Assembly (NCBI RefSeq): GCF_025506335.1
Contig: NZ_JANZYO010000006.1
Span: forward strand, 164,349 to 228,348
Direction of reading: 5' to 3'
From: Mumia quercus
GTDB taxonomy: Bacteria; Actinomycetota; Actinomycetes; Propionibacteriales; Nocardioidaceae
DNA: 64,000 nt
The first letter of the stretch is position 1; each line of letters opens with the position of its first letter. Below the pieces are notes generated by a model. It was not told the origin of the DNA. It made no database searches and worked only from the letters and a program-made list of their open reading frames with translations. Shown here one piece after another: positions 27,236 to 44,427 of the stretch. A program made the position numbers and the translations under genes.

Positions 27236-28768
27236 TCAGTGGGGACGACCTCGGAGGCGAAGCGACCCGACGACGACGACGAGCGTCGCCGCTGCCGTGG
27301 CCAGCGCTGCCGGCACCACCGCGAGCACGCCGGCCGCGGCGAGCGGGACGGCGACCACCGTGTACGCGAGGGCGAGCGAGGTGCCGGCCATCGCGGTCGT
27401 GTCGATCGCGTGCGCCAGCCTGATCGCGGCCACCGCTCCGGCGACGTCTCCGCCCGCGACGCTGACCGCAGCACCGCTGCCCGGTGCTGCGAGAGCGAGG
27501 TCGGCGCAGATGGTCGCGACGTCGTCGGGCGAAGACGAGAGCACTGCGACGCGGTGACCGTCGCCGTGCAGTCGGTCGACGAGTGCGCGTCCGCCGATCG
27601 CGCCGGTCTCCGCGACGACGTGGCTGATGCCGACCTCCGCGGCGAGCTGTTCGGCAGAGGCGCGGTCGCGGGTCGTCACGAGGACCGGCTCCAGCCCGAG
27701 CGCCCGGAGCGCGTCCACCGCCTTCTTCGACGCAGGCCGCGGAGTGTCGGCGACGGTGATCGTGCCGAGCGGCCGGGCGTCCACCTCGACCGCGACCGTC
27801 ACACCGGGCCCCTCGGGTGCGTCGACGCCGATCCAGGCCGGACGCCCGACACGTACCGGATGACGGTCGACCGAACCGCTCACGCCGAGCTCAGGATGGT
27901 GCTGGACGCCGGTCACCCGGCCGCGTACCGAGAGCCGGGAGATCGCGCGCCCGACCGCGTCCTTGCGCGTGTGCTCGAGAGCGCCGGCGAACCAGCGGAT
28001 GTTGCGGTCGTGGTCCGGCGACAGCGGGTCGACAGAGGTGACGTGCATGCCGTCGGCCACGGTCTCGTGCCCGTGCAGGACGAGCGTGTCGACCTCGAGC
28101 GCGACGTCGAGAGCGGCCGGGTCGTCGTAGGTGACGCCGTCCCGGTCGCCCCGCCGCGCCCCGGCCACCACCGCCGCCGGCACCGCGACTCCGAGCGCGC
28201 CGGGGCAGGCGGCGACGAGCACAGCCACGGCCGCGGAGACGGCGGGCCAGGGTGCGTCGGCGACGAGGAGCCAGGCGGCCAGGGTCCCCGCTGCCGCGAG
28301 GAGCAGGGCAGGGACGAGCCAACGTGGCGTGCGACGGAGCGCCGCGAGGGTCCCCGCCATCGACACCAGCCGCTGGCGTACGAGCAGGACGCAGGCGACG
28401 ACGACGGGCGCGACGAGTCTCGAAGACGGGTGCCCGACGGCGACGGCGTAGAGCGCCCAGAGGTAGGCGGCGAGGACGCCTGCGGAGGCGAGCACGTCGA
28501 ACGAGAGGTCGCGCCGGCGGAGCGCGCGGATCGCGTCGCGATGGGTGGGCCAGGTCAGCGCGCCGACGACCGTGACGAGCGCGAGGCACACCCACGACCA
28601 CGAGGGGAAGCGCAGGCTCGGCGTCATCGACAGCACGGCGACGGTGAGGGTCGCGACCGTCGCGACCGCCAGCTCCAGCAGCGACCCGTCGCGTACGGGC
28701 ACGAGTCTGTCGTGCCGTCCTTCCTGGCCGGGCTGGGTGCGCGGGTTCTCGGAGGACACGGTCGTCAT
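27236..28768 (-). CDS. Degenerate P1B-type ATPase-like membrane protein, copy A
   Basis: The 510-residue protein has the topology of a heavy-metal P-type ATPase: six membrane segments before and including AACPGALGVAVP (CPG at 188-190, where P1B pumps have CPC/CPH), a cytosolic segment, and two terminal membrane segments. Catalytic parts are lost. The actuator domain is missing, with fewer than 20 residues between segments four and five and no TGE. DKTGT reads HGHET (232-236), so the phosphorylated aspartate is gone. The HP motif reads DA (270-271), TGDN reads TTRD, and GDGIND reads SSSPDD. Ion pumping is therefore very unlikely; a sensor or scaffold role is inferred. It starts at an ATG overlapping the regulator stop (ATGA). 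A paralogue lies at 30415-31926. Confidence 0.8.
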   Translation of the reverse strand: MTTVSSENPRTQPGQEGRHDRLVPVRDGSLLELAVATVATLTVAVLSMTPSLRFPSWSWVCLALVTVVGALTWPTHRDAIRALRRRDLSFDVLASAGVLAAYLWALYAVAVGHPSSRLVAPVVVACVLLVRQRLVSMAGTLAALRRTPRWLVPALLLAAAGTLAAWLLVADAPWPAVSAAVAVLVAACPGALGVAVPAAVVAGARRGDRDGVTYDDPAALDVALEVDTLVLHGHETVADGMHVTSVDPLSPDHDRNIRWFAGALEHTRKDAVGRAISRLSVRGRVTGVQHHPELGVSGSVDRHPVRVGRPAWIGVDAPEGPGVTVAVEVDARPLGTITVADTPRPASKKAVDALRALGLEPVLVTTRDRASAEQLAAEVGISHVVAETGAIGGRALVDRLHGDGHRVAVLSSSPDDVATICADLALAAPGSGAAVSVAGGDVAGAVAAIRLAHAIDTTAMAGTSLALAYTVVAVPLAAAGVLAVVPAALATAAATLVVVVGSLRLRGRPH

Positions 28769-30018
28769 GGGGCGTCCTCGATCCGCGCATCCTCGATGCG
28801 GAAGCGTTCGAAGTCGCTCTGGTCGCCTGCGATCCACAGCGGCACGCTCGCCTTGAGCAGCATGGTGAGCTGGACGACGAACTCCGAGTCGTGCAGGGCT
28901 TCGCCGAACAGCTCGTTGATCCGCTTCCAGCGGTAGCGCACCGTCTGCGGGTGCACGCCGAGACGGGCGGCGATCGCGGGCGCGCTGTCACGGGTCTCCA
29001 GCCACGCGAGGAGGGTCTCGGAGAGGATCTCGCGCGAGTTCTGGGTCTCGGCGAGCAGCGGGCGCAGGAGCTCTTGGGCGAGCCGACGGCGGATCGCGGG
29101 CTCGGCGTGGAGCCAGATCTGCGCGCGGTACTTCTCGCAGTCGACGAGCGGGACCCTGGGGATCACCCCCTGCTCGACGAGCGCGAGCGCGCGTACGGTC
29201 CACCGGCGGGCGTCGGCGATCTCGTCCATGTCGACGCTCCAGGACCGGGCGACGACGGTGCCGGGCGCCACCGACTCGATATGCTCCTTGGCCGCGACCA
29301 CCTCGCTCGCGTCGCAGACGACCACGGCGGGGTCGAGCTCGGTGCTCACGAGGAGACTTTCGTCGAAGTCGGTCGCAGGGGGCACGTTGCCGTCCTCGTC
29401 CGCGATCGACGCGCTGAGCACGACGATCTGCGCCGGGAGGGTCCAGCCCGCGGTGAGCGCGAGGTCCTGGAGATCGGACCAGGGCTCGCCTTCCACGAGA
29501 CGGGCTGCGAGCTTGCCCCGCGCGACGCCGGTGTCCTTGTCGAGCGTGCGCAGGGCCGTCTCGTACCCGATGACGACCTGCTCGGTCAGGTGGTCGATGT
29601 AGCCGAAGAGGACGTCGCCGTAGCGGCCGAGGTCGGCCGCGCTCAGCCCCTGCGCCGCCGCGAACGCGCGCATCTCCTCCCAGGAGTCGCGGGTCGCGAG
29701 GTGCATCGCCGCCTTGATCGCGCTGAGGTCGTTGCCGTCGTTGGCCTCCCCGTATCCCATGCGGCGGAACAGGTCGTCGACGCGCACGTTCGTGGTCTTC
29801 TTCGCCTGGATCAGGTCGAGGAAGTGGTGGATGGCGCCGGTCGCGGCGAGGGCGATGAGGCGTCGGCGGCGGCCGGTGACGGGGCCTGCGAAGGACGGTA
29901 CGCCCTGCTGGATCTTGTCGGTCAGCCGCGCGACGAGATCGGGGATGCCGGGCTTGAACAGAGTGACGAGGCCGGCGGGCGCGGGGAAGAAGTCGCGTTC
30001 GCTGTGCAGCTCGATCAT
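28765..30018 (-). CDS. PucR/CdaR-like regulator, copy A
   Basis: The 417-residue protein ends in a PucR-type helix-turn-helix: AQELLRPLLAETQNSREILS, then RDSAPAIAARLGVHPQTVRY and RWKRINELFG (about residues 320-385). The N-terminal part (VARLTDKIQQGVPSFAGPVTG and the following helices) resembles the RsbRD-like domain found in actinobacterial PucR proteins. The start ATG at 30018 is read by coupling: a 15-codon leader ORF ends in the ATGA that contains it. A longer in-frame reading from 30090 (MHGTPQEGR) is possible. Its stop overlaps the start of the degenerate ATPase, so regulator and ATPase-like protein are one unit. Copy B at 31923-33167 is highly similar, most of all over the C-terminal 100 residues. 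Confidence 0.85.
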   Translation of the reverse strand: MIELHSERDFFPAPAGLVTLFKPGIPDLVARLTDKIQQGVPSFAGPVTGRRRRLIALAATGAIHHFLDLIQAKKTTNVRVDDLFRRMGYGEANDGNDLSAIKAAMHLATRDSWEEMRAFAAAQGLSAADLGRYGDVLFGYIDHLTEQVVIGYETALRTLDKDTGVARGKLAARLVEGEPWSDLQDLALTAGWTLPAQIVVLSASIADEDGNVPPATDFDESLLVSTELDPAVVVCDASEVVAAKEHIESVAPGTVVARSWSVDMDEIADARRWTVRALALVEQGVIPRVPLVDCEKYRAQIWLHAEPAIRRRLAQELLRPLLAETQNSREILSETLLAWLETRDSAPAIAARLGVHPQTVRYRWKRINELFGEALHDSEFVVQLTMLLKASVPLWIAGDQSDFERFRIEDARIEDAP

Positions 30019-30062
30019 CGCGCGCTTCCCGTGTCGCGCGCCTTCGGAATCACCACGTCCAT
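30015..30062 (-). CDS. 15-codon leader peptide overlapping regulator A start
   Basis: The ATG at 30062 has GGAGG six bases upstream, an ideal ribosome binding site. The frame encodes MDVVIPKARDTGSAR and stops at the TGA inside the ATGA that starts the regulator. The second module has an equivalent 12-codon ORF at 33164-33202. The shared layout suggests that translation of the peptide controls or couples regulator synthesis. No experimental support is known to me. Confidence 0.5.
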   Translation of the reverse strand: MDVVIPKARDTGSAR

Positions 30063-30094
30063 CCCGCCCCTCCTGCGGTGTGCCGTGCATCACA
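30063..30094 (-). promoter_or_regulatory. Conserved 32-bp leader block, copy A
   Basis: Thirty-two bases here match 33212-33243 with one difference. The block begins with TGTGATGCACGGCACA, whose TGTG/CACA ends form a weak dyad, and ends with the G-rich ribosome binding site GGAGGGGCGGG. Flanking sequence is not conserved, so the block is under selection or recently copied. It could be a shared operator plus translation signal. Confidence 0.6.
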
Positions 30095-30312
30095 GTCCCA
30101 TCAAATCGACGACCCTTCAATGGCGGCGTGGGCCCTGACCCCAGACAACCAGCCGTCGCTCCCTCCCCGAAAGCCGAACCGGTGGATCGGTGCGCCACTT
30201 CATAGAGACTTCTGAACCTGGGCCCTCCAGCGGGGGAGGACGGTGTGGAGCGCGAGGATCAGCTCCCGTCGCGCAGCGGACTCGTCGAGGGCGTCGGGCT
30301 GGTGGCCGATCC

Positions 30313-30396
30313 GCGTTCGGTGGGGTACCCCACCGAACGCGCACTGACCCCAGCGCCCTCACAGGGGTCAGTGCGGGGCCGCTCGGGTACCCGAGC
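30313..30396. repeat. GGTACC-flanked triple palindrome, copy 3
   Basis: A perfect 28-bp palindrome centred on GGTACC (30313-30340) is followed by a CACTGACCCC stem (30342-30351 with 30364-30373) and a 16-bp palindrome GCTCGGGTACCCGAGC (30381-30396). It has the same order of parts as copies at 874 and 2014, with compensating base changes that keep the stems paired. It fills much of the 350-bp gap between the two regulator/ATPase modules, where I see no gene. Confidence 0.88.
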
Positions 30397-30414
30397 GGAC
30401 GGACGCGGCGTGGC

Positions 30415-31926
30415 TCACGCGGCGAATCGGCGCAGCTTCATCGCGCTCGCCAGCACCACCAGCGAGCTCGCTGCGAGCGCGAGCGCCGCCCCCATCGGCG
30501 GGAGCACCCCGACCGCGGCGACGGCGACCGCAGCCGCGGTGTAGGCGGCGGCGGCCCGCAGCGTCGTGCGCACCTGGGCGTCGATCGTCCGCGCGAGGGT
30601 CAGTGCGGTCACGGCCTCGGCGACATCGCCTTCGGCGAGCGTCACCGTCGACCGCTCGTCCTCGCCCGCGCTCGGGTCCAGAACCAGCGACTCGTCCGCG
30701 AGCACAGCAACGGTGCGGCCCTCGTCGCGCAGCTCCGACACAAGCGTCGTCGTGCTCGTCGCCCCGGCCTCCGCGACGAACCGGTCGATGCCCACCTGCT
30801 CGGCGACGTCCTTCGCCGTCAGCGGGTTCGCCGTCGTCACGAGGACCGGGTCGACGTTGAGGCGGCGCAGGTTGGCGGCCGCCTGCTTCGCCGTCGGGCG
30901 CACGGCGTCGACGACCGTGATCGTGCCGAGCGGTCGCGCGTCGACCTCGACGCCGACGGTGGTGCCCACGCGCTCGGTCACGTCGATGCCCACCCACTCC
31001 GGACGGCCGACGCGGACCGGATGCCGGTCGACCGACCCGCTGATGCCGAGGCCTGGGTGGGTCTCGACGCCGGACAGCCGCCCGCGCGCCGACAGCTTGG
31101 CGATCGCCTTGCCGACGGGGTGGGCCGAGGCGTGCTCGAGCGCCCCGGCGAACCAGCGGAGGTTGCGTTCGTGGTCGGCGACGAACGCATCGACCGACGC
31201 GACGCGCTTGCCGGACGCGACCGTGCCGAGCCCGTCGAGCACGACGACGTCGACGCGTCTGCTCGCGGCCAGCGTGGCCGCGTCGTGGATCACCACGCCG
31301 AGGGCATCGCCGCGTCGCACTCCGCTGCGGTACGCCGCGGGCAGCGCGAGCCCGATCGCGCCGGGGCAGGCCGCGATCACGACCGCCACTCCGGCAGCGA
31401 ACGCGCGCGCTGGGCGAGCGTCGATCGCGAGCCAGACACCGACCGTAGCGGCGGCGACCGCCAATGCGACCGGGACGACCCAGGCGGGGACCGGTGTGGG
31501 GCCAGTTGTCGCCTCCCGATGCACCCCGTGGCAGGCGAGGACGACGACACCCACCACGGCGGCGACGCCGAGGTCGACCGTGCGCCCGTGCGTGACCAGC
31601 GCGCCGACGGACCAGGCGCAAGAGGCGGCGACGGCGACGAGCGAGAGTGTCGTGAGTGCGAGCCGTCGGCGACGCAACTCGGCGACGATCTCCGCGCGCA
31701 AGCTCCACACGCACGCCAGAGAGACGGCGCTCCCGGCGGCGACCACGACCTCTCGCCACGAGGGGAAGCGGACGACCGGTGTCGAGCAGAGGAGCACGAC
31801 GCCGACGGCCAGCATGGTCACCGCGCCGAGCGCTATCCGCCGCGCGGGGGAGGCGGTCGGTCGGAGTGCAGCCGGGCCCGTACGCCGGTCGCGCGGCGCA
31901 CGGGTATCAGTGGGCGCCGTCGTCAC
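30415..31926 (-). CDS. Degenerate P1B-type ATPase-like membrane protein, copy B
   Basis: The 503-residue paralogue of the 27236-28768 product has the same topology and shared blocks (RFPSW, GALEH, SGSVDRHPVRVGRP, ARPLGTITV). It keeps slightly more of the ancestral chemistry: CPG at 187-189, DGLGT (231-235) in place of DKTGT with the aspartate retained, and the HP motif intact (269-270). The actuator domain is again absent, TGDN reads TTAN, and GDGIND reads ADESLV. Without actuator and hinge aspartates a transport cycle is not expected. The GTG at 31926 overlaps the regulator stop (GTGA). Position, coupling and shared loss pattern mark this pair as a duplicated functional module and not a decaying gene. 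Confidence 0.8.
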   Translation of the reverse strand: MTTAPTDTRAPRDRRTGPAALRPTASPARRIALGAVTMLAVGVVLLCSTPVVRFPSWREVVVAAGSAVSLACVWSLRAEIVAELRRRRLALTTLSLVAVAASCAWSVGALVTHGRTVDLGVAAVVGVVVLACHGVHREATTGPTPVPAWVVPVALAVAAATVGVWLAIDARPARAFAAGVAVVIAACPGAIGLALPAAYRSGVRRGDALGVVIHDAATLAASRRVDVVVLDGLGTVASGKRVASVDAFVADHERNLRWFAGALEHASAHPVGKAIAKLSARGRLSGVETHPGLGISGSVDRHPVRVGRPEWVGIDVTERVGTTVGVEVDARPLGTITVVDAVRPTAKQAAANLRRLNVDPVLVTTANPLTAKDVAEQVGIDRFVAEAGATSTTTLVSELRDEGRTVAVLADESLVLDPSAGEDERSTVTLAEGDVAEAVTALTLARTIDAQVRTTLRAAAAYTAAAVAVAAVGVLPPMGAALALAASSLVVLASAMKLRRFAA

Positions 31927-33167
31927 GTCGGATCCTCGCTCCTGAAACGCTCGAAGTCGCTCTGGTCGCCGGCGATCCACAGCGGCACGCTCGCCTTGAG
32001 CACCATCGTCAGCTGCACGATGAACTCGGGGTCGTGCAGGGCCTCCCCGAACAGCTCGTTGATGCGCTTCCAGCGGTAGCGCACCGTCTGGGCGTGCACC
32101 CCGAGACGTCCTGCGATCGCCGGGGCGCTGTCGCGGGTCTGCAGCCAGTCGAGCAGAGTCTCGGAGAGGATCTCGCGGGAGTTCGGGGTCTCGGCGAAGA
32201 GCGGGACGAGCAGTTCCTGCGCCATCTGACGACGCAGTGCTGGTTCCGAGTGCAGCCAGAGCATGGTGCGGTACTTGGCGCACTCGATCACCTCCTCGGA
32301 GATGATGCCCTTGTCCGAGAGGTCGAGTGCTCGGACGGTCCAGCGTCGGGCGTCGGCCACGTCACCGACGGACACCTTCCAGCTGGCGGCGATGCGGATC
32401 GTCGGTATCGCGTCGCGGAGCAGGGCGAGGACAGTGACGCTGTCGTCGACGGAGCAGACATAGACGGCGGGGGACGGAGACGTGCGCGCGAGGACCGGTG
32501 CGTCGGACTCGGCAAGGTCTGGCAGCTCAGTGCCGTCCGGCGCGTCGGCGCTCAGGACGACGACGCGAGGCGCGAGGACCCATGCGGCGTTCGCAGCAAG
32601 CCTGTCGATCTCCGCTGCGTCGCTCACGCCATCGAGCAGCCCGTCGAGAAGGCGACGCCGAGCGGCGACGATGTCGCTGTCCCGTGCACGCCGGGCGGCG
32701 TCGTAGCCTGTCGTCGCCTGGTCGGCCAGATGGTCGAGATAACCGAACAGGTCGTCGCCGAGCTTGCCCAGCACGTCTGCGGACAGATTGTGCTTCGAGG
32801 CAATGGCTCGAAGCTCGGCCCAAGCCTCACGGCCAGCGAGCTGGAGTGACTCGCGGAGCGCGGTGAGGGAGTGGCCGTCGCTGGCCTCGGCGTATCCCAT
32901 GCGTCGGAAGAGGTCGTCGACACGCGCCCCGGTTGACGAGGGCTTTCCCAGAACCATGTCAAGGAAATGGCTGATCGCGCCGGTCGCTGCAGTGCTGATG
33001 AGCTTGCTTCGCCGCCCCGTCGTCGAGCCGGCGAAAGACGGCACCTCTCGCTGGATCTTGGCGGTGATCCGCTCGACAAGGTCGTCAAGAGTCGGCTTGA
33101 CGAGATTGACGACGCCCGGCGGTACCTCTCCTGGCGAGAGGGCCTGGCCGGCCCCAGCCTCGATCAT
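31923..33167 (-). CDS. PucR/CdaR-like regulator, copy B
   Basis: The 414-residue protein parallels copy A throughout: VERITAKIQREVPSFAG near the N-terminus, VDDLFRRMGYAEASDG, and a C-terminal PucR helix-turn-helix in AETPNSREILSETLLDWLQ and AGRLGVHAQTVRYRWKRINE. The last 60 residues, ending KASVPLWIAGDQSDFERF, are nearly identical in both copies, while the middle sensor-like region has diverged. This suggests the same DNA target with different input signals. The ATG at 33167 is overlapped by a 12-codon leader ORF. A longer in-frame reading from within the conserved leader block cannot be excluded. Confidence 0.85.
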   Translation of the reverse strand: MIEAGAGQALSPGEVPPGVVNLVKPTLDDLVERITAKIQREVPSFAGSTTGRRSKLISTAATGAISHFLDMVLGKPSSTGARVDDLFRRMGYAEASDGHSLTALRESLQLAGREAWAELRAIASKHNLSADVLGKLGDDLFGYLDHLADQATTGYDAARRARDSDIVAARRRLLDGLLDGVSDAAEIDRLAANAAWVLAPRVVVLSADAPDGTELPDLAESDAPVLARTSPSPAVYVCSVDDSVTVLALLRDAIPTIRIAASWKVSVGDVADARRWTVRALDLSDKGIISEEVIECAKYRTMLWLHSEPALRRQMAQELLVPLFAETPNSREILSETLLDWLQTRDSAPAIAGRLGVHAQTVRYRWKRINELFGEALHDPEFIVQLTMVLKASVPLWIAGDQSDFERFRSEDPT

Positions 33168-33202
33168 GCCGGAGTCCTCGTGACGGTCTGACTGAGATCC
33201 AT
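33164..33202 (-). CDS. 12-codon leader peptide overlapping regulator B start
   Basis: ATG at 33202 opens a frame encoding MDLSQTVTRTPA that ends at the TGA inside the ATGA of the regulator start. The GGAGG in the conserved leader block lies 15 bases upstream, further than in copy A. Peptide sequences of the two copies share only the first two residues, but length, position and overlap are the same. Confidence 0.45.
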   Translation of the reverse strand: MDLSQTVTRTPA

Positions 33203-33211
33203 GGCTGTGCC

Positions 33212-33243
33212 CCCGCCCCTCCCGCGGTGTGCCGTGCATCACA
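33212..33243 (-). promoter_or_regulatory. Conserved 32-bp leader block, copy B
   Basis: This matches 30063-30094 at 31 of 32 positions and contains the TGTGATGC...GGCACA dyad and the G-rich ribosome binding site. A TAGGAC sequence just upstream (33246-33251 on the minus strand) could be a -10 element. Confidence 0.6.
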
Positions 33244-33544: not shown

Positions 33545-34162
33545 TCAGCCGACGCTGATTCGTCCGTTGCTGACGTTGAGATCGATCGTGCTTCCGTGTC
33601 CGGGCACGATCTGGTTGAGGATGAAGGTCTGCAGTCCGCAGTTCTGGAAGGCTCCGATGGTGTACTCGCCGACGAGGCGGCCGCCGTTGGTGACGTCGAA
33701 GGACTCCCCGGCCGGGGTGTTGGCGGGGATGGTGACGGGGACCTTGGTGCGGCAGTTGTTGCCCACGAAGGCAGGAAGGCCGCCGATGAGGACGTCGGAG
33801 AGGCGGATGTAGTACGACGCGGTCGAGGTGACCTTGTTGGCGCCATCGACGTAGGCGATGCTGCCGGTGACCGGGGCGGCCTCGATGAAGTTCACCTGAG
33901 CCTTCACCGGCAGGAAGCCCAGCAGGTGGAACTTGGTGTCGGCAGGCTGCAGAGGCATGTGGCCAGTGAACGTTCCATCATCGCTCTCCATCGCGAGGGA
34001 CAGCGTGGTGGGCTTGATCCACAGGTCGGAGTCGGTGGTGTTGATGTGCGACCAGCCGGTCGCGTCGTATTCGACGTTGAGTGTGACCGCGTTGGCGGCA
34101 GTGGGCATGAATGCCAGTGCAGCAGCAGCGCCGGCCACGGCGAGGGTACGAAGAATCTTCAC
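33545..34162 (-). CDS. Secreted protein of unknown function
   Basis: The 205-residue protein starts with a clear Sec signal peptide (MKILRTLAVAGAAAALAF, cleavage near TAANA-VT). The mature part is rich in beta-type sequence and has two cysteines (NNCRTK and QNCGLQ) that could form a disulfide. I do not recognise a family. It is followed by a terminator at 33483 and preceded by a second secreted-protein gene on the same strand with its own terminator, so each has its own transcription unit. The location next to a mce locus and between PucR-type regulators suggests a cell-envelope role, but this is only context. Confidence 0.7.
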   Translation of the reverse strand: MKILRTLAVAGAAAALAFMPTAANAVTLNVEYDATGWSHINTTDSDLWIKPTTLSLAMESDDGTFTGHMPLQPADTKFHLLGFLPVKAQVNFIEAAPVTGSIAYVDGANKVTSTASYYIRLSDVLIGGLPAFVGNNCRTKVPVTIPANTPAGESFDVTNGGRLVGEYTIGAFQNCGLQTFILNQIVPGHGSTIDLNVSNGRISVG

Positions 34163-34261: not shown

Positions 34262-34933
34262 TCAAGTTGTGATCTTGATCGGCCACTCGGTGTTGTTGTC
34301 GGTCTTCGTGACGTGGTAGGTGCCGGCGAAGTTCGCCGAAGCGCCGTTCGGGATGAGGTTGAAGCAGCCGACCACGTTCGACACGGTCAGCGTCGAGCCC
34401 GCCGTGACGACCGAGAGGAGCTGCCCGTTGTGCGTGTGGGCGCCCGTGCTCGTGGCGTCGTTGAAGCTGCCGTTCACCGTTCCCGCGACCTTGAACGAGC
34501 ACAGACCTGGCGTCGCCGAGGTCACCGTCGCAGAGATGTTGACGAGCCGGCCGGGGGTGACCGTGCCGCTCTCGTTCCCGGTGATCTGCAGCCCCCACGT
34601 GCCGGAGTGCGCCACGTTCATCGGGATACCCAGCGGACCGACGCAGCCGCTCCACGTGGTACCCGTGATGGTCGCCACGTTGGGTGTCGGGTAGGGCGTG
34701 TAGGACCCTGCCGTGACCGACCCGGTCGCCGTGCCGCTGGTGCACGACATGGCGACGCCGCCGGCGTTGAAGCTGATCGCGCCCGTGGTGTGGCCGCTGA
34801 TCGCGTGGCTTCCGGTCGTGGCTCCGCCAACGGTCACGTTCGCGGGCGGTCCGGCGTAGGCGGTGGTGGCTGCCACCCCAACGAACGCTGCTGCCCCCAC
34901 TGCTGCGCCGACTCCTCGGATGAAGCGTCTCAT
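34262..34933 (-). CDS. Secreted protein of unknown function, cysteine-containing
   Basis: The 223-residue protein has a Sec signal peptide (RRFIRGVGAAVGAAAFVG, cleavage near AYA-GPP) and a mature part rich in Gly, Thr and Ser with four cysteines (MSCTS, WSGCVG, LCSFKV, VGCFNL). The pattern suggests a compact beta-sandwich held by two disulfides. I do not recognise a family. AGGGGAG precedes the ATG. It is divergent from the 35269 gene across a 335-bp region. Confidence 0.7.
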   Translation of the reverse strand: MRRFIRGVGAAVGAAAFVGVAATTAYAGPPANVTVGGATTGSHAISGHTTGAISFNAGGVAMSCTSGTATGSVTAGSYTPYPTPNVATITGTTWSGCVGPLGIPMNVAHSGTWGLQITGNESGTVTPGRLVNISATVTSATPGLCSFKVAGTVNGSFNDATSTGAHTHNGQLLSVVTAGSTLTVSNVVGCFNLIPNGASANFAGTYHVTKTDNNTEWPIKITT

Positions 34934-35268: not shown

Positions 35269-36300
35269 ATGCGAGTTCTGGGGACCCGCCTCCGCAAGGC
35301 GGCCGTGGCGACGTCTGTCGCCGCGACTTTGGCCATCGCCGGCGGTGCGGCCGCAGAGCCAGATTCCACGTATCCCAATCTTCCCAAGCAGCTCGGTTTC
35401 GGCATGGTCGGGAGCGGGACGACCACGCTCGCGTACGTGAGGCCGTCAAAGCAGTGGATGCAGCTGGCGGACGCCCTGGTCGTCGCCGACACCATCGTCG
35501 CTCTGGCCGGCAATCCGAGCTGTCACGGCGTGATCGAGCCACCAGAACGCTGCGAGCTCGCACCGAACTCGTACCAAGGCTTTCCGTTCACTGCCAGGGT
35601 GTTCCCGGTCACCCCGAAGAAGCCGATCGAGTCGTCGACCTTCCGCACGTTCCCGCCGGTGAAGATCCGAACGGTCGCCTTCGGAACCATCCCCGCCACC
35701 GCGACAGTCGAGCTGCGACTGCGGTCCGGAGCTGACGGACTTCCCGAGCCGCTGGTGGCAACGACCGACGATGACTACTATCAGCGACTTCTCGGGCCTT
35801 GCGGTGACTGCTTCCCGACCGACAACTATCACCGGATCAGTGACTCCGACGTCCGTGGGACCTTGGATGTCCGGCTGTCGGAGCTCGTCGTCGATGGAGT
35901 GACGATGAACGTCGGCCCGCGGTGTGAGGCGAAGGGTGCGGTTCTCCGTGGACGTGGCGAAGGCTACTTCTCCAACCAGGACAACACCGCATGGCGTGAC
36001 CTGTCGACCGGCGAGCCGTTGGATTTCGACTCCCGCCTCGGAGTGCCCGTGGGCAAGTACAACGCCGCGCTGGGCGGCGTCATCCGGGCAACGATCGACG
36101 TTCCTCGCTTCGTCGGGTGCGGGACCGGCGGTGAGAACCTGAGCCCGCTGGTGAGCTCGGTCGCCTCGGGCCGGGACTTCCCCGTCGTGGTGACGCAGGC
36201 GAAGGCGCACGGACTCTGCTGGAACACGGTGCCGAGTCTGATCGATCTCGGCCAGTGCCCGTACGTGGGTGAGATGCCGTACCCCACCAACAACGGTTGA
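35269..36300 (+). CDS. Secreted cysteine-rich protein of unknown function
   Basis: The 343-residue protein has a Sec signal peptide (LRKAAVATSVAATLAIAGG, cleavage near AAA-EP) and eight cysteines in the mature part, including PCGDCFP, GCGTG, LCWN and QCPYVG. I do not recognise a family. The mature sequence begins with a low-charge segment and ends PYPTNNG. A CACGAT hexamer seven bases before the ATG would fit a leaderless transcript, since no ribosome binding site is evident. It is convergent with the first RCC1-type gene across a shared terminator. Confidence 0.7.
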   Translation: MRVLGTRLRKAAVATSVAATLAIAGGAAAEPDSTYPNLPKQLGFGMVGSGTTTLAYVRPSKQWMQLADALVVADTIVALAGNPSCHGVIEPPERCELAPNSYQGFPFTARVFPVTPKKPIESSTFRTFPPVKIRTVAFGTIPATATVELRLRSGADGLPEPLVATTDDDYYQRLLGPCGDCFPTDNYHRISDSDVRGTLDVRLSELVVDGVTMNVGPRCEAKGAVLRGRGEGYFSNQDNTAWRDLSTGEPLDFDSRLGVPVGKYNAALGGVIRATIDVPRFVGCGTGGENLSPLVSSVASGRDFPVVVTQAKAHGLCWNTVPSLIDLGQCPYVGEMPYPTNNG

Positions 36301-36404: not shown

Positions 36405-38216
36405 TCAGGCCTTTCGGACCTTGACCTTGATCGTCTTCGCCGACTTGTTCACCGTGGCCGACCCCAGGTAGCGGACCGACAGCTTGACCTTCCCGGCCTT
36501 GGGCAGCTTCTTGAGTCGGACGACTGCGGTTCCGTTGGCCTTCAGACGGGCAGTTCCGACCTTCTTCGCGCCGAGGAAGACGGCGACCGTGCCGTTGGCG
36601 CGGACTCCTGTCGCTCGGACCGAGACCTTGACCTTCGCCCTGGTCTTCTTAGCGACGATCTTCTTCGTGGCTGCCTTGGCGCTGACCTTGGCGTTGGCCT
36701 TGGCAACGCTAATCCGCACGCTGGTGGCGGATGCCTTCACCGTGGCACTGCCTGCGTACCGGATCGTGAGGGTGTGCACTCCAGGAGTGAGTGCCGTCTT
36801 CGGAAGCGTCAACGACGCTCGACCCGACTGAGCAGTCCCCGTGGCGAGCCGCCGGGTTCCCTTGGAGACGTCCACCCTGCCGCTGGCACCGGCGGGAGAG
36901 ATGAGGACGTTGACCCGCGGCGCGCTCGCGCCGTACCGCACTGCTGCGGCGCTGGCCCGTACGGTCGAGGCGACCTGTGGAAGGGCGACCGGCGCCGTTG
37001 CGGCGGACGTCGCGCTGACGGTCTCGCCGCCCTTCGTCGCGGTCTGAGTCACCGTGATCCGCTTCCCAAGATGGGCGCTCGTCAGAGCGAGAGTCGTCCC
37101 CGTCGCGCCGGTGATGGGCGTGCCATCGGCCTTCCACTGCGAGGTCACGGTCTCAGGCGCGCCAGAGAACGTCCCCGAGGAGAGCGAGAGACTGTGTCCG
37201 GTCGTGGCCGTTCCGCTGACGCGCGGCGGAGTCGCTGTCCGCAACGCGGCGTACAACCCCAACGTCGTGGATTCGCTCGTCGACGCCTGGGTGTATCGAT
37301 GGTCCTCGAGAAGCTTCAGCAGCCCTCCGCTGGCATCGAAGACGAACACCTTGCCCGACTCGGTGAGGACCGAGAACCGATTGGCGTTGGGGATCGAGAT
37401 CGACACGGCCTTCTCGCCGCCCAGGACCGTCTCGACGGCGGCATTCACGAGGGCGTCGCTCGAAGGCGTCCCTCTCCAGAGGTGAACCCGGTGGTCGTCG
37501 GTGATGGCGCCGGAGACGCCTGCTCCGTTGGCGATGGCGATCGTCCTCCCCTGGATCTCGGCCGGCACAGGGAGACGCGCACAACCGCAAGAGGACTCTT
37601 CCCCCCAACCCACCACGGTGCCGTCAGACTTGAGAGCCAGCTGGAGCCCTTCGCTGGCGGCGACGTCGACGACGTTGGACAGACCGGCGGGAACGGCGAA
37701 CGCGCCGGTCGACTTGCGGCCCCACGTGACGACCGTGCCGTCCTTCTTGAGCGCGAGCGCCGTCCATGACGGGGCAGAGACCTTCGTCACGTCTCGCAGA
37801 CCCGCGGGAACGTTGGTGATGCCCCAGCCGGGATCGCCCCACGCGACGACGGTGCCGTTGGAACGGAGTGCGACACCGTTCAACCCCGCCTCCACGGCGA
37901 TGACATCCGACAGACCAGCGGGAACCTTCACGTTGTTGCGGGCGGCATCACCGATGCCGTCCCCCCAAGCGGTGACCTTCCCGTCGGCCGTGAGGGCAAA
38001 GTTGAATCCGCCGCCAGCAGCGACGGCGGTGACGGCCTTTCCGCTGAGCGAGGCAGGGATGGTGCTGAGAACCGGACTGCTGCCCCACCCGGTGACGGCT
38101 CCGGCATCCGCAAGCGGAACCCGGCCGGAGTCGGCGGTTGCGGGGCCCGGTAAGGCACCCAGGGCGAGTGCGCTCGAAGCCACGGCGACAGCGCCGCGGC
38201 GAAGCAGTGAATGCAT
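36405..38216 (-). CDS. Secreted RCC1-repeat protein with Ig-like C-terminal domains, paralogue 1
   Basis: The 603-residue protein has a signal peptide, then a series of RCC1-type blades of the form LALKSDGTVVGWG and VALRSNGTVVAWG (about residues 40-310), an Ig-like/bacterial surface domain with VTSQWKADGTPITGATG (about 330-400), and a lysine-rich C-terminal half with repeated beta-type units ending GKVKLSVRYLGSATVNKS and KVKVRKA. It is exported and probably bound to the envelope through its very basic tail. RCC1 propellers mediate protein contacts. The target is unknown. It is about half identical to the neighbouring 38292 product, so the pair is a tandem duplication. Confidence 0.82.
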   Translation of the reverse strand: MHSLLRRGAVAVASSALALGALPGPATADSGRVPLADAGAVTGWGSSPVLSTIPASLSGKAVTAVAAGGGFNFALTADGKVTAWGDGIGDAARNNVKVPAGLSDVIAVEAGLNGVALRSNGTVVAWGDPGWGITNVPAGLRDVTKVSAPSWTALALKKDGTVVTWGRKSTGAFAVPAGLSNVVDVAASEGLQLALKSDGTVVGWGEESSCGCARLPVPAEIQGRTIAIANGAGVSGAITDDHRVHLWRGTPSSDALVNAAVETVLGGEKAVSISIPNANRFSVLTESGKVFVFDASGGLLKLLEDHRYTQASTSESTTLGLYAALRTATPPRVSGTATTGHSLSLSSGTFSGAPETVTSQWKADGTPITGATGTTLALTSAHLGKRITVTQTATKGGETVSATSAATAPVALPQVASTVRASAAAVRYGASAPRVNVLISPAGASGRVDVSKGTRRLATGTAQSGRASLTLPKTALTPGVHTLTIRYAGSATVKASATSVRISVAKANAKVSAKAATKKIVAKKTRAKVKVSVRATGVRANGTVAVFLGAKKVGTARLKANGTAVVRLKKLPKAGKVKLSVRYLGSATVNKSAKTIKVKVRKA

Positions 38217-38244
38217 GATGCTCTTCTCCTTGTCGATGAGGGGA

Positions 38245-38275
38245 GGGGTGCCTCGTCGATCGGACGAGGCACCCC
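38245..38275 (-). terminator. Terminator between the RCC1 paralogues
   Basis: GGGGTGCCTCGTC (38245-38257) pairs with GACGAGGCACCCC (38263-38275), 17 bases beyond the stop of the 38292 gene, so the two paralogues are transcribed separately. Confidence 0.8.
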
Positions 38276-38291
38276 CGTTGCGCGTCGAGCG

Positions 38292-40085: not shown

Positions 40086-40159
40086 GGTTGTCTCTCTTTC
40101 TCTTGGCGGCACGACGAAGGTGTGTCGGTCTGCCGGAAACCGGGGGATGGGGTTGGGGA

Positions 40160-41305
40160 TCAGGGACGGGGGAGGCTGGACCATTCGGGGAGGACTGCTC
40201 GGAGCGCGAGGATGAGCTCGAGTCGGGACGACGGATCGTCAAGGTCGTCGCCGAAGATCTTGCGAAGTGCTTGCGCGCGGCTGTGCGCGGTCTGGGGTGC
40301 GAGCCCCAGCGCGCGGGCGACGGCGGCGACGGGTTGCCCGGTCTCGAGCCAGACCAGCAGCATCTCGCCCAGGTGCACACGGCGCTCCGGTCCGAGCGCG
40401 CTCAGGCTGCCGAGATGCTTCGTGACCAGGAGCTCGGCCAGGTAGCGGTTGCCGCCGAGGAGGAGAGGGCCGAGCAGGTCCGTGCACGGGACGATCGTGC
40501 GGTCGTCGTGCGCCGTCGACTCCCGCAGCAGCAGAGCCGCCCGGCGAGTGAGCTCGAGCGACTCCGCGATCCGTTGCAGGCCCGCTGGAGGGCCGACGAC
40601 GACCTGGCGGGTCACGTGCTCCCGGAGGTGGGCGGACCACCCAGCGGCAGCGGGGACGAGTGCTTCGCGGAGGTCGTTGCCGGCGAGGACGTCGGGGTCG
40701 TGCCGGATCCGAGGGGGTAGCGGATCGCGTACCGACACGAGCGCTGTGAATTCGTCCGTCGGGTCGAGACCGGACAGCTCGAGCGCGTGGTCGAGGCGCG
40801 AACCGCCGCGAAAGATCGTCGCGTGAAGGTGCTTCAGCTGTTCTGCCCGGAGTGCCCCCGCCCGCTGGCGCTCGGTCCAGCCGTGGTTCAAGTGGACCTG
40901 CAGCTGGGCCAGATACGCCGCGATGCCCTCGCGGAGCCGGAGGACCACGTGACCGGAGACTGAGCTGCCCAGGGTCATCTGGAGGCCACGCTGGACGGCA
41001 GCGTGGATGCTGTCGAACGCCTCGTTCACACGGTCGGGCGGAGTGTTCGCCTCGGCAAGGCGACCACCGAGGTCGCGCATGCTCGCCTCTACTCGTTGAG
41101 AGGCGAGAGCGCAGGACCCCTCGGCGTCGACGAACGCCATGATGGCCTCCGACACGAGGCCCGACAGTTCGGAGTCGTCGGGCAGACCTGGCATCACCGC
41201 CCGCACGATCTGTCGTGTGAGCATCGCGAGACGGTCGCGCGTGATATTACGGAGCGCGGGTTCCCGAGAGGGTCGTGTGCCGCGTCCAGGTGCGACGAGT
41301 GTCAT
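40160..41305 (-). CDS. PucR-like regulator upstream of the mce operon
   Basis: The 381-residue protein ends in a PucR-type helix-turn-helix (TGQPVAAVARALGLAPQTAH and SRAQALRKIFGDDL). A helical N-terminal region (LTRQIVRAVMPGLPDDSELS) resembles the RsbRD-like part of the other two regulators in the window, though overall similarity is low. The ATG at 41305 follows GGAGGGAGCTGGC. The gene is divergent from the mce operon, with 460 bases and two operator-like modules between them, so it is the obvious candidate to control mce expression. Known mycobacterial mce regulators are of GntR and TetR type, which makes a PucR-type regulator notable. Confidence 0.82.
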   Translation of the reverse strand: MTLVAPGRGTRPSREPALRNITRDRLAMLTRQIVRAVMPGLPDDSELSGLVSEAIMAFVDAEGSCALASQRVEASMRDLGGRLAEANTPPDRVNEAFDSIHAAVQRGLQMTLGSSVSGHVVLRLREGIAAYLAQLQVHLNHGWTERQRAGALRAEQLKHLHATIFRGGSRLDHALELSGLDPTDEFTALVSVRDPLPPRIRHDPDVLAGNDLREALVPAAAGWSAHLREHVTRQVVVGPPAGLQRIAESLELTRRAALLLRESTAHDDRTIVPCTDLLGPLLLGGNRYLAELLVTKHLGSLSALGPERRVHLGEMLLVWLETGQPVAAVARALGLAPQTAHSRAQALRKIFGDDLDDPSSRLELILALRAVLPEWSSLPRP

Positions 41306-41434: not shown

Positions 41435-41477
41435 CTTGTCATGCGCATGACAAGAGTTGGTAACGAGAAGGTAACGA
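41435..41477. promoter_or_regulatory. mce operator module 1
   Basis: A perfect 20-bp palindrome containing TTGTCA-N6-TGACAA (41435-41454) is followed five bases after TGACAA by two direct GGTAACGA units with an 11-bp period (41459-41466 and 41470-41477). The same combination recurs at 41583-41624. Confidence 0.75.
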
Positions 41478-41582: not shown

Positions 41583-41624
41583 TTGTCACCCACGTGACAA
41601 GTCATGGTCACGAAGAGGTCACGA
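41583..41624. promoter_or_regulatory. mce operator module 2
   Basis: TTGTCA-N6-TGACAA (41583-41600) is followed after five bases by two direct GGTCACGA units with an 11-bp period (41606-41613 and 41617-41624). Arrangement and spacing match module 1. The module lies 145 bases before the mce start codon. Confidence 0.75.
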
Positions 41625-41768
41625 ACCGTCGATCTTTGTCTGACCCTCTGCCGCGTGACGCGGAGCACACCTACGTTCGACGCCAGGCACCGAATCGGCT
41701 GAGGGGGCGATGCGGTGCCGCCTACATCACGGCGCGTCGCGGCGCGGTCGAATGCCGAGGGAGGACGA

Positions 41769-43565
41769 ATGGGCGGGACGGTCGAGGTCGAGGGCCTCAC
41801 GAAGAGCTTCGGGCGCCAGAACATCTGGCGTGACGTGACCTTGACGCTCCCGCCCGGGGAGATCACGGCGCTGCTCGGCCCGTCGGGCACCGGCAAGTCG
41901 GTGTTCCTCAAGTCGCTGATGGGCCTCATCCAGCCGGAGGCCGGCGTCGCCCACATCGACGGCGTCGACATGTGCCGCGCGAAGGAGTCCCAGCGCCTCG
42001 AGCTGCGCAAGAGCTTCGGCGTCCTCTTCCAGGACGGTGCGCTCTTCGGCTCGATGCCGGTCTACGACAACGTCGCTTTCCCGTTGCGCGCCCACACCCG
42101 CAAGACCGAGAAGGAGATCAAGCAGATCGTCTCCGAGAAGCTGGATCTGGTCGGGCTCCTCGGCCAGGAGCACAAGCTCCCCGGCGAGATGTCCGGAGGC
42201 ATGCGCAAGCGCGCCGGCCTCGCCCGCTCGCTGGTCACCGAGCCGTCGATCATCCTCTGCGACGAGCCCGACTCGGGTCTCGACCCGGTGCGTACGGCGA
42301 ACCTGGCGCAGCTCCTGCTGGACGTCAACGCACAGACCGACGCGACGATGCTCGTCGTCACCCACAACATCGAGCTCGCCCGCACGCTGCCGGACAACCT
42401 CGGGATGCTGTACCGCCGCGAGCTCGTGATGTTCGGGCCGCGCGAGGAGTTCCTGCTCACCGACCACCCCGTCGTCTCCCAGTTCATGAGCGGGGACCCC
42501 GACGGACCGATCGGCATGAGCGAGGAGGTCGACCACAGCACGACCCACGAGCCCGACGAGTCGACGTACGGGTACGGCGACGGCTACCCCGACGGGTATC
42601 CCGATGGCGGCGGCATGGCGACGATGGTCCGTTCCGGGGCCCGGGCCATCGAGGTGCTCCCGCGTCAGCTCGTCCCCACGTCGGGTGCCGTGCGCGCCGG
42701 CGCGGTCCGTCACGGCGCGCGGGTGTCGTCAGGCAAGGCGCCGCTCTACGTCGCCGACGACGAGGAGACCGACCCAGTCGCGCCACCTCGTACGCAGCCT
42801 GCCGTCGTCCGTGGTCTGGACGAGATCGGCAACCTTTTCGCCCTCGGCCTCGACACGATCCGCGCCACGTTCCGCCGGCCGTTCGCCGCGCGCGAGGCGC
42901 TCGAGCAGTTCTGGTTCGTGGTGTCGGTCTCGTGGGTCCCGGCGATGCTCGTCGCCATCCCGTTCGGCGCGGTCATCGCGCTGCAGCTCGGCACCCTGAC
43001 CGTCCAGGTCGGCGCCCAGTCCTACACCGGTGCGGCCAGCGTGCTCGCGGTCGTCCAGCAGGCAGCACCGATCGTGACGACGCTCGTCATCGCGGGGGCA
43101 GGAGGTGCGGCCATCTGTGCCGACCTCGGAGCACGGACCATCCGCGACGAGATCGACGCGATGAAGGTGACGGGTGTCTCGCCGATCCAACGGCTGGTCG
43201 TGCCGCGGGTGCTCGCGTGCATGGGCGCGGCCGTCCTGCTCAACGGGCTGGTCTCGGTCGTCGGCGTCCTCGGCGGCTACTTCTTCAACGTCGTCGTGCA
43301 GGGCGGCACCCCGGGTGCGTACCTCGCCAGCTTCACCGCGCTCGCGCAGATCTCCGACCTCTGGGTCGGTGAGCTGAAGGCCGTCATCTTCGGCTTCATC
43401 GCCGGCGTCGTCGCCGCGTACCGCGGGCTCAACACCCGTCCCGGCCCCAAGGGTGTCGGCGACTCGGTGAACCAGTCGGTCGTCATCACCTTCCTCCTGC
43501 TGTTCTTCGTCAACTTCGTCCTCACCACGCTGTACCTGCAGCTGGTGCCCGGCAAGGGAGCGTGA
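41769..43565 (+). CDS. Fused MceG-type ATPase and YrbE/MlaE permease
   Basis: The 598-residue protein joins an ABC ATPase of the MceG/MlaF type to a YrbE permease. The ATPase has Walker A (GPSGTGKS), signature MSGGMRKRAG and Walker B ILCDEPDSGLDP (residues 1-250). A linker of about 100 residues rich in Gly, Tyr and Asp follows. The permease (about residues 360-598) has VSWVPAMLVAIPFGAVIA, RTIRDEIDAMKVTGVSP and a final hydrophobic segment. Mce systems import lipids or sterols. The ATPase is usually a separate gene, in mycobacteria unlinked from the mce operons, so this fusion is unusual. The ATG at 41769 follows GAGGGAGGACGA. No stop or frameshift separates the two parts. Confidence 0.9.
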   Translation: MGGTVEVEGLTKSFGRQNIWRDVTLTLPPGEITALLGPSGTGKSVFLKSLMGLIQPEAGVAHIDGVDMCRAKESQRLELRKSFGVLFQDGALFGSMPVYDNVAFPLRAHTRKTEKEIKQIVSEKLDLVGLLGQEHKLPGEMSGGMRKRAGLARSLVTEPSIILCDEPDSGLDPVRTANLAQLLLDVNAQTDATMLVVTHNIELARTLPDNLGMLYRRELVMFGPREEFLLTDHPVVSQFMSGDPDGPIGMSEEVDHSTTHEPDESTYGYGDGYPDGYPDGGGMATMVRSGARAIEVLPRQLVPTSGAVRAGAVRHGARVSSGKAPLYVADDEETDPVAPPRTQPAVVRGLDEIGNLFALGLDTIRATFRRPFAAREALEQFWFVVSVSWVPAMLVAIPFGAVIALQLGTLTVQVGAQSYTGAASVLAVVQQAAPIVTTLVIAGAGGAAICADLGARTIRDEIDAMKVTGVSPIQRLVVPRVLACMGAAVLLNGLVSVVGVLGGYFFNVVVQGGTPGAYLASFTALAQISDLWVGELKAVIFGFIAGVVAAYRGLNTRPGPKGVGDSVNQSVVITFLLLFFVNFVLTTLYLQLVPGKGA

Positions 43566-43572
43566 CCCGCTC

Positions 43573-44427
43573 ATGACCCCCACCCCCGACACGGCACCCG
43601 TCGTCCGCCGACGGCGGCCGTGGGACAAGCCGCTGAACGGGCTGTCCAACATCGGCGCGGACATCCGGTTCCACGGCCAGGTCATCGCCGCGATCCCGAC
43701 GGCGATCCGCCGCTATCCCAAGGAGATCCTCAAGCTGCTCTCCGAGGTCAGCTTCGGGTCGGGCGCGCTCGCCGTCATCGGCGGCACGGTCGGCGTGATG
43801 GTCGGGATGAGCCTGTTCGTCGGCACGGTGGTCGGCATGCAGGGCTACGCCGCGCTCGACCAGATCGGCACCTCGACCCTCAACGGGTTCATCTCGGCGT
43901 ACTTCAACACTCGCGAGATCGCCCCGCTGGTCGCGGCGCTCGCCCTGTCCGCGACCGTCGGCGCCGGGTTCACGGCGCAGCTGGGCGCGATGCGGATCAG
44001 CGAGGAGATCGACGCCCTGCAGGTGATGGGGGTGGGCGCGGTCCCGTTCCTCGTCAGCACGCGCGTCGTCGCCGGATTCATCGCGATCATCCCGCTGTAC
44101 GTGATCGGCCTGCTCACGTCGTACGCGGGGTCGCGCATCGTCACGGTGTTCTTCCGAGGGCAGTCGGCGGGCACGTACGACCACTACTTCAACCTGTTCC
44201 TGCCGCCGATCGACATCCTGCTGTCGTTCGCGAAGGTCCTGGTGTTCGCGGTGCTGATCATCCTGATCCACTGCCGCCTGGGCTACAAGGCGAGCGGCGG
44301 GCCGGCAGGCGTGGGCACGGCGGTCGGGCACTCCGTGCGTCGCAGCATCGTCACCGTCGCCGTCCTCGACCTCATCCTCTCCATGGCGATGTGGGGCACG
44401 ACCACGACGGTGAGGATCGCCGGATGA
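43573..44427 (+). CDS. yrbEB: YrbE-type Mce permease B
   Basis: The 284-residue integral membrane protein belongs to the MlaE/YrbE family, with LAVIGGTVGVMVGMSLFVG, the conserved cytosolic loop RISEEIDALQVMGVGAVPF, and several membrane segments up to the C-terminus. It should pair with the permease half of the upstream fusion to form the transmembrane channel under the Mce ring. It begins seven bases after the fusion gene and overlaps mceA by ATGA. Confidence 0.92.
   Translation: MTPTPDTAPVVRRRRPWDKPLNGLSNIGADIRFHGQVIAAIPTAIRRYPKEILKLLSEVSFGSGALAVIGGTVGVMVGMSLFVGTVVGMQGYAALDQIGTSTLNGFISAYFNTREIAPLVAALALSATVGAGFTAQLGAMRISEEIDALQVMGVGAVPFLVSTRVVAGFIAIIPLYVIGLLTSYAGSRIVTVFFRGQSAGTYDHYFNLFLPPIDILLSFAKVLVFAVLIILIHCRLGYKASGGPAGVGTAVGHSVRRSIVTVAVLDLILSMAMWGTTTTVRIAG

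Follow-up and report, generated by a model that had tools for sequence, protein, structure and literature searches.

Why would a bacterium maintain, side by side, two operons in which a transcriptional regulator is joined to a P-type ATPase stripped of its pump motifs? The stretch of the Mumia quercus genome analysed here (64,000 nucleotides, hereafter the window) raises this question at positions 27236-33239, where two tandem operons on the minus strand each encode a short leader open reading frame (ORF), a PucR-type regulator and a membrane protein resembling the P1B-ATPases. On balance we favor the interpretation that the membrane protein, which we call the pseudo-ATPase, is a membrane-anchored dead enzyme that docks and controls the PucR-type regulator of an mce lipid import operon. 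The argument begins with the proteins and their constant pairing, and proceeds to a candidate operator common to their promoters and that of the mce operon.

A pump without its catalytic motifs

In both modules the order of transcription would be a putative operator, a leader ORF, the regulator and the ATPase-like gene, and successive reading frames overlap. In module 1, putative operator A (TGTGATGCACGGCACACC, 30077..30094, minus strand) precedes a 15-codon leader ORF (30015..30062, ATG start, with the ribosome-site-like stretch GGAGGGG before it) whose stop overlaps the ATG of regulator 1 (28765..30018, 417 amino acids from the ATG at 30018) as ATGA. Regulator 1 ends in the C-terminal tail KASVPLWIAGDQSDFERF and overlaps pseudo-ATPase 1 (P0001, 27236..28768, 510 amino acids), again as ATGA. 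Module 2 repeats this layout on the same strand: the identical 18-mer at 33226..33243, a 12-codon leader ORF with its own GGAGGGG (33164..33202) whose stop overlaps the next ATG, regulator 2 (31923..33167, 414 amino acids from the ATG at 33167) and, across a GTGA overlap, pseudo-ATPase 2 (30415..31926, 503 amino acids, being P0003 plus its GTG start codon). Alternative regulator starts at 30090 (in frame) and 33239 were judged less likely than 30018 and 33167, because the leader ORFs stop exactly at the latter and aligned relatives start there. The first-pass annotation of this DNA had described two adjacent units with the same gene order, overlaps and leader sequence, and all three features are borne out.

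The two copies are 56% identical in the regulator and 46% identical in the ATPase-like protein. The DNA-binding ends of the regulators are nearly identical (72/80) and their middle parts differ (37/90 and 36/94), as had been noted at the outset. The accompanying statement that the cytosolic parts of the ATPases differ has to be reversed: the core of the nucleotide-binding (N) domain is the part most alike (71/108), and the first helices are the least alike (33/115). Among congeneric genomes, module 1 is closest to the module of G038 and module 2 to those of G057 and G064; two further genomes of the genus (G021, G049) gave no partner-type match. A recent duplication is ruled out by the 46-56% identity and by the different orthologues of each copy, and the sequences thus indicate that the duplication is old. 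Since both modules nevertheless keep the identical putative operator, the two copies probably act on the same promoters.

Both membrane proteins match the end of E1-E2_ATPase and Hydrolase in Pfam, and their nearest NCBIfam family is that of the heavy-metal pumps (TIGR01525), at 128.3 and 144.1 bits against a cut-off of 346.25, which neither reaches. Their best solved sequence relative is 3rfu (2.4e-24), and over residues ~140-506 they share ~40-44% identity with intact pumps from the same family of bacteria. The predicted structure of P0001 (predicted local distance difference test, pLDDT, 90.6; predicted template modelling score, pTM, 0.84) matches the P1B pump 4bbj with a Foldseek E value of 3.2e-22 and 3rfu_A with a VIA-align Z of 31.2 across 484 residues; the Cd pump 7qbz scores equally well (Z 31.7). 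The model resembles Cu-, Cd- and Zn-pumps in fold, and contains all of the CopA helices MA, MB and M1-M6. We take the proteins to be homologues with a predicted CopA-like P-type ATPase fold and topology, sharing with the CopA-type Cu+ P1B-ATPases (3rfu/4bbj, A. fulgidus CopA, ATP7B) the order MA-MB-M1 to M6 and the phosphorylation (P) and N domains. They differ from these pumps in lacking the N-terminal metal-binding domain, the whole actuator domain, and the CPC, DKTGT and GDGxND motifs, in a membrane part that is reduced in many relatives, and in newly fixed residues of the N domain.

The loss of pump chemistry extends across the family. DKTG, CPC and GDGxND are each present in 0/47 distinct relatives, a set that includes one protein cut by a contig end (L123) and one odd one (L124), neither of which shows the core motif WFA in its called frame. 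Close relatives with intact motifs, which the first-pass annotation had named as an outcome that would count against it, thus did not appear. When 38 relatives are aligned, the DKTGT columns hold Thr in 0/38, Asp in 29/38 and Lys in 12/38, and the Lys of PEDK and the Asn of GDGxND are found in none. TGE is missing because nothing is left of the actuator region that should separate M2 from M3: all 38 rows are gapped at this position, the P0001 model passes from helix 115-144 to helix 151-169 with no domain between, and the TGE tripeptides present in some relatives sit elsewhere. Contrary to what had been claimed, the losses do not follow the same pattern in the two window copies. The phospho-Asp position is His in module 1 (VLHGHETV) and Asp in module 2 (VLDGLGTV), and the nucleotide motifs E..HP and GxG are kept in module 2 and partly lost in module 1; DKTGT, the actuator TGE, CPC and GDGxND are all absent from module 2 as well.

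What remains of the protein is constrained. Ratios of nonsynonymous to synonymous substitution (dN/dS, Nei-Gojobori count) lie at 0.10-0.48 across ten close pairs, which argues for purifying selection rather than decay, as the first-pass annotation had held; between the two window copies the ratio is 0.62. Nine positions (R255, W259, F260, G262, G283, R302, P304, E328 and R344) are fixed in at least 92% of the 38 relatives but occur in no more than one of ten pumps, and six of the nine fall within two N-domain stretches, RNLRWFAGAL and VDRHPVRVG. The comparison set consists of the ten pumps with DKTGT among 13 collected sequences, one of the ten (L004) having CPH for CPC; L021, L070 and L079 were excluded as wrong-frame ORFs. 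The nine residues seem to reflect a new constraint and not a leftover of pump function. None of the 38 relatives lacks the N-domain core (occupancy 1.00), whose majority-residue share is 0.70, compared with 0.15-0.43 in the membrane and late P-domain parts; for the first four helices the occupancy is 0.33 and the share 0.15.

A constant partner and its C-terminal tail

The partner of this protein is a PucR-type regulator that may be of the MabR subtype. HTH_30 is found in both window regulators (Pfam E values 3.8e-15 and 4.3e-13) and in 21/21 partner regulators of our alignment A2, of which 3/21 also match GGDEF_2. The predicted structure of the regulator comprises a helical N-terminal domain, a GGDEF-like domain and a helix-turn-helix (HTH) domain, with a pLDDT of 86.0 and a pTM of only 0.54. 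It weakly matches RsbR-N (2bnl, 0.1) and sporulation-inhibitor globin folds (range 0.1-0.5); nonheme globin domains of this kind can bind fatty acids. Its best solved matches are MabR (9f80, Foldseek 1.1e-4) and 3onq, and MabR is also the best sequence match in the PDB (2e-5). MabR (Rv2242) combines HTH_30 with a helical N-terminal domain and a GGDEF-like domain, an architecture that the window regulators would share. It is a PucR-type regulator of mycolic-acid synthesis whose effectors "remain to be identified", and the main text of that account, in which the word "membrane" is absent, gives it no membrane partner (PMC11617747).

The pairing of regulator and pseudo-ATPase is nearly invariant. 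We scanned 84,980 species genomes for exact matches to two pseudo-ATPase motifs, and 39 of the 129 pattern matches encoded a relative, in 38 loci (13/38 give proteins that were already in the set). In 37/38 of these loci a regulator neighbors the pseudo-ATPase on the same strand, directly upstream in 34 and directly downstream in three (L128-L130); L123 is cut by the contig end. Starting from the regulator instead, we fetched 20 loci picked among the strongest regulator matches, and a pseudo-ATPase adjoins in all 20 (directly downstream in 19, in reversed order in L098). The neighborhood comparison proposed with the first-pass annotation thus came out in favor of a true pair. Isolated, frameshifted remnants, the other outcome that it had set against itself, did not appear, and among the 38 loci broken-looking regulators occur only in L121 and L124. 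Genes in the relatives were called by codon usage, so starts may be off and small genes may have been missed.

The pair was found in relatives of Nocardioides, actinobacteria of the soil. No member outside the Nocardioidaceae was seen in the exact-motif scan of the 84,980 genomes, where the relatives belonged to named Nocardioidaceae and to three loosely named records (LLX17, an Actinomycetes metagenome-assembled genome and a Propionibacteriales one). Across 391 genomes of the order, the best match outside the family (among the matches listed, with four candidates per genome) had an E value of 1.5e-72, in the range of intact pumps. Across 393 genomes of the class, 15 had matches at 1e-85, all of them Nocardioidaceae, and three of these (G037, G069, G076) lie in pump-like frames of 730-818 amino acids. 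The Foldseek and VIA lists were not taken as evidence of absence.

Partner regulators carry a distinctive C-terminus, KASVPLWxAGDQSDFERF, which sets them apart from MabR. A GDQSDF-type tail is present in 44/44 regulators with a pseudo-ATPase gene downstream (distinct, complete C-termini) and in three regulators of reversed-order loci, and it occurs in 1/32 regulators without the gene, that one being a tandem copy beside a paired regulator. Six tail-less regulators, one of them frame-shifted, sit after a pseudo-ATPase gene. Two members of the partner clade that are without a pseudo-ATPase (in G043 and G075; L165:2944 and L168:1935) have also lost the tail. The tail-bearing regulators form one clade with a support of 94 (99 without the G043 member) in a quick tree that gave long-branch warnings. 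Regulator and pseudo-ATPase distances correlate (Mantel r 0.88, 0/2000 permutations as high, with shared descent not removed). The sequences make the correlation of tail and partner our best hint of a docking element. A tandem second regulator with a partial tail (RTGDQSDFPRQ) lies directly before a paired regulator in Nocardioides marmoriginsengisoli (L097:7173, the same as L133:7403).

A candidate operator at two kinds of promoter

The window also contains an mce operon on the plus strand. It begins with a fused ATP-binding cassette (ABC) ATPase-MlaE permease gene (41769..43565), followed by a second MlaE permease (43573-44427) and six Mce-family proteins (44424-51237), the first recognized by Pfam and the others by BLAST cluster. 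Its Pfam domains MlaE, MlaD and Mce4_CUP1 are shared with the Mce/MlaE lipid importers of actinobacteria, such as the Mce4 system of sterol import, from whose operons it differs in the fusion of the ABC ATPase to MlaE and in a promoter with motifs A and B, described below. The sterol mce operon of N. simplex has been assigned to the KstR regulon (PMC7593942). The MlaF-like ABC ATPase and MlaE that form one chain at 41769-43565 are called as split genes in G142, G122 and G040.

Regulator and fused ATPase-MlaE gene occupy the same 30/149 genomes of the family, and the pseudo-ATPase is found in 29 of these 30 (G043 being without). Presence was defined by gaps in E value chosen after the tables were seen: best values down to 3.4e-81 counted for the regulator (next genome 4.4e-36), and values to 9.3e-263 for the fused gene (next genome 1.0e-211). 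These genomes share descent, and we claim no probability for the co-occurrence. It also holds in genomes whose mce operon is placed on a different contig (G064, G073, G093, G105, G137), and a Mce or MlaE gene falls inside the fetched stretch of 20/38 loci (L101-L138).

Motif A links the two kinds of promoter. With at most one mismatch, TGTGA-N7-CACACC occurs three times in the window: before module 1, before module 2, and upstream of the mce operon, where the site with one mismatch (41654..41671, plus strand) lies directly before a -10-like hexamer, TACGTT. In relatives, exact TGTGA-N7-CACA lies upstream of 13/46 partner regulators compared with 4/484 other genes in the same orientation (6 more reversed). 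A matrix was built from sites before regulator operons, with its threshold set so that ~2% of other genes pass. With the locus under test left out, it detects 21/46 partner promoters, 12/20 first mce genes and 6/311 other operon-first genes; with more loci and the seeds included, the counts are 22/51 partner promoters, 21/35 mce promoters and 6/334 others. None of three related split mce genes (G040, G122 and G142, none with a close partner regulator) has the motif before it. Site A stands directly before a TAnnnT hexamer in 24/40 mce upstream regions and 1/977 other regions, although this extended pattern was taken from those same mce promoters, so that it describes them and does not serve as a test. 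The TGTGA half of the motif resembles a CRP site; a CRP-type site was judged unlikely, the right half not being TCACA in the seed sites listed. These distributions suggest that the partner regulator probably controls the lipid-type mce import operon.

Motif B hints at a second circuit. The window has two perfect TTGTCA-N6-TGACAA palindromes (putative operators B at 41436..41453 and 41583..41600, plus strand), both between the mce operon and a third, divergent PucR-type regulator gene (40160..41224, minus strand) that has no GDQSDF tail and to which the sites perhaps belong; shuffled sequences gave none. Among relatives the motif precedes 20/35 mce operons and 13/44 tail-less PucR genes, compared with 4/51 partner regulators and 8/334 other genes. 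It is therefore possible that two PucR regulators act on the mce operon.

Between the modules and the mce operon lie three putative secreted families without Pfam matches: S4 (33545-34162, minus strand), S1 (34262-34876 or 34933, minus strand) and S6 (35269-36300, plus strand). All three families are found again beside these regulators and mce operons across many Nocardioidaceae, and S1 is often present more than once. As targets of motif A they find no support (S4 0/36, S6 1/33, S1 5/68); motif B precedes 14/68 S1 and 10/33 S6 genes. At 36405-40184 two proteins that look secreted are encoded in tandem; their RCC1 repeats give way to bacterial Ig-like domains (Big_3_5), and such proteins recur in the same neighborhood of relatives. 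Motif A is scarce before RCC1 genes (2/23) and before tail-less PucR genes (3/44).

A proposed docking model and its rivals

We propose that each module would be a dedicated two-protein regulatory unit. Its MabR-like PucR protein would bind TGTGA-N7-CACA upstream of its own operon and of the mce operon, whose fused ABC ATPase-MlaE and Mce proteins would form a lipid- or sterol-type importer; it would act most likely as a repressor, a sign that is a guess from site positions in the sequence. The ATPase-like protein would descend from a CopA-like copper pump, of which the metal-binding domain, the actuator, the metal site and the chemistry of phosphorylation are gone. Its rebuilt N domain would dock the regulator, probably through the GDQSDFERF tail, and it would hold or release the regulator according to the state of the membrane or a bound ligand. 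In this model we infer the docking, the coupling, the signal, the sign of regulation and operator binding by the partner regulator.

The chain of overlapping genes, from leader ORF across ATGA to regulator and across ATGA or GTGA to pseudo-ATPase, would fix the ratio of the partners. A leader ORF stop lies over a possible regulator start in 43/46 partner regulators compared with 47/505 control genes treated with the same permissive script. The two leader ORFs of the window are of similar length and encode dissimilar peptides, and the peptide does not look conserved between genera. Translational coupling would therefore be a likelier role for it than attenuation.

A number of observations weigh against this model. 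As for the leader, an ORF of at least six codons ends at the called regulator start in only 23/46 cases, and the other leaders are missing, very short or tied to an alternative start. As for the operator, the ten distinct seed sites of the matrix came from the partner promoters being scored, motif A is missed at 29/51 partner and 14/35 mce promoters, and related species are not independent. Shuffled windows hold a mean of 0.84 sites and 4/100 reach three, so the number of sites in the window is weak evidence in itself, and it is their positions that carry the weight. A -10-like hexamer lies directly before site A in only 10/50 partner promoters, and overlap of site A with the regulator's own promoter is thus unsupported. 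Another regulator than the partner could also bind motif A. G043 combines a regulator of the partner clade and an mce operon with no pseudo-ATPase, and its mce promoter is without site A. The tail pattern was broadened, to G[DN][QL][SRT]D[FV], after the sequences had been inspected, and the tail may be structural rather than a dock. The scan motifs were derived from an alignment of regulator-linked members and may favor linked ones. Finally, the dN/dS of the pseudo-ATPase exceeds that of its regulator in 9/10 pairs, and the nucleotide-binding residues kept in module 2 leave room for a nucleotide role.

Four other explanations can be set beside the docking model. The membrane protein may act as an effector that serves the mce system in the membrane or envelope, its only tie to the regulator being the operon they share. 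Its co-occurrence with the fused mce gene would follow from this, and gene overlap also suits an operon of regulator and target. However, the tail of the regulator tracks the presence of the pseudo-ATPase gene, and the pair is intact where the mce operon is on another contig; we therefore regard this explanation as unlikely. A slightly less probable alternative is a nucleotide sensor, in which the retained N domain reads ATP or ADP and ties the energy state of the cell to the regulator. The N domain is the best conserved part, the second Gly of GxG is present in 38/38 relatives, and module 2 keeps both E..HP and GxG. Yet the residues that we take, from CopA, to contact ATP drift (Glu 21/38, His 11/38, first Gly of GxG 30/38), and residues that are new to the pseudo-ATPase family have become fixed.

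Less probable again, by a narrow step, is a transceptor in which the former transport path of the membrane part would serve as the binding site of a metal or another ligand, and binding would be signalled to the regulator, much as the first-pass annotation had envisaged. The full set of helices predicted in P0001 and its likeness in fold to metal pumps would suit such a role. The family as a whole speaks against it: the first and second CPC cysteines survive in 6/38 and 1/38 relatives, the M5 Tyr and Asn in 5/38 and 1/38 and the M6 Met in 1/38, and in 23/38 relatives hydropathy finds no more than 2-4 helices, compared with 7-8 in the window proteins, while the N domain stays. Lastly, that these are decaying pump genes hitchhiking beside a regulator is very hard to credit: the lost pump motifs, sizes varying from 309 to 510 amino acids in one set of loci, the higher dN/dS than in the regulator and the broken regulators of L121 and L124 would fit, but selection is purifying, residues have become newly fixed, frames stay open from genus to genus and the pairing is constant.

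The docking model has precedents in outline. Dead relatives of kinases and transporters can signal, and in MalK-MalT, PtsG-Mlc and yeast Snf3/Rgt2 transcription is under the control of a transport protein or of a descendant that no longer transports. To our knowledge none of these three involves a P-type ATPase, and the present case would differ from them in retaining the cytosolic N domain while much of the transport domain can be dispensed with. In the open-access literature searched, we found no description of signalling by a catalytically dead P-type ATPase, or of a PucR protein paired with one. The pseudo-ATPase looks like a new kind of signalling partner. We tentatively put forward the broader possibility that in a lineage of the Nocardioidaceae, and probably on a single occasion, a P-type ATPase gave up transport and became a signal protein of the membrane. 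Its rebuilt N domain would capture a PucR regulator by the GDQSDFERF tail and so make the transcription of a lipid importer depend on the state of the membrane, and these proteins would be the first signalling family of pseudo-P-type ATPases.

If this is true, an ion pump can be stripped down to a membrane-held docking domain, and the natural deletion series of the family, from about eight helices to two, would separate the needs of signalling from those of pumping. The Nocardioidaceae, which include degraders of steroids and pollutants, would gain a testable regulator of lipid import.

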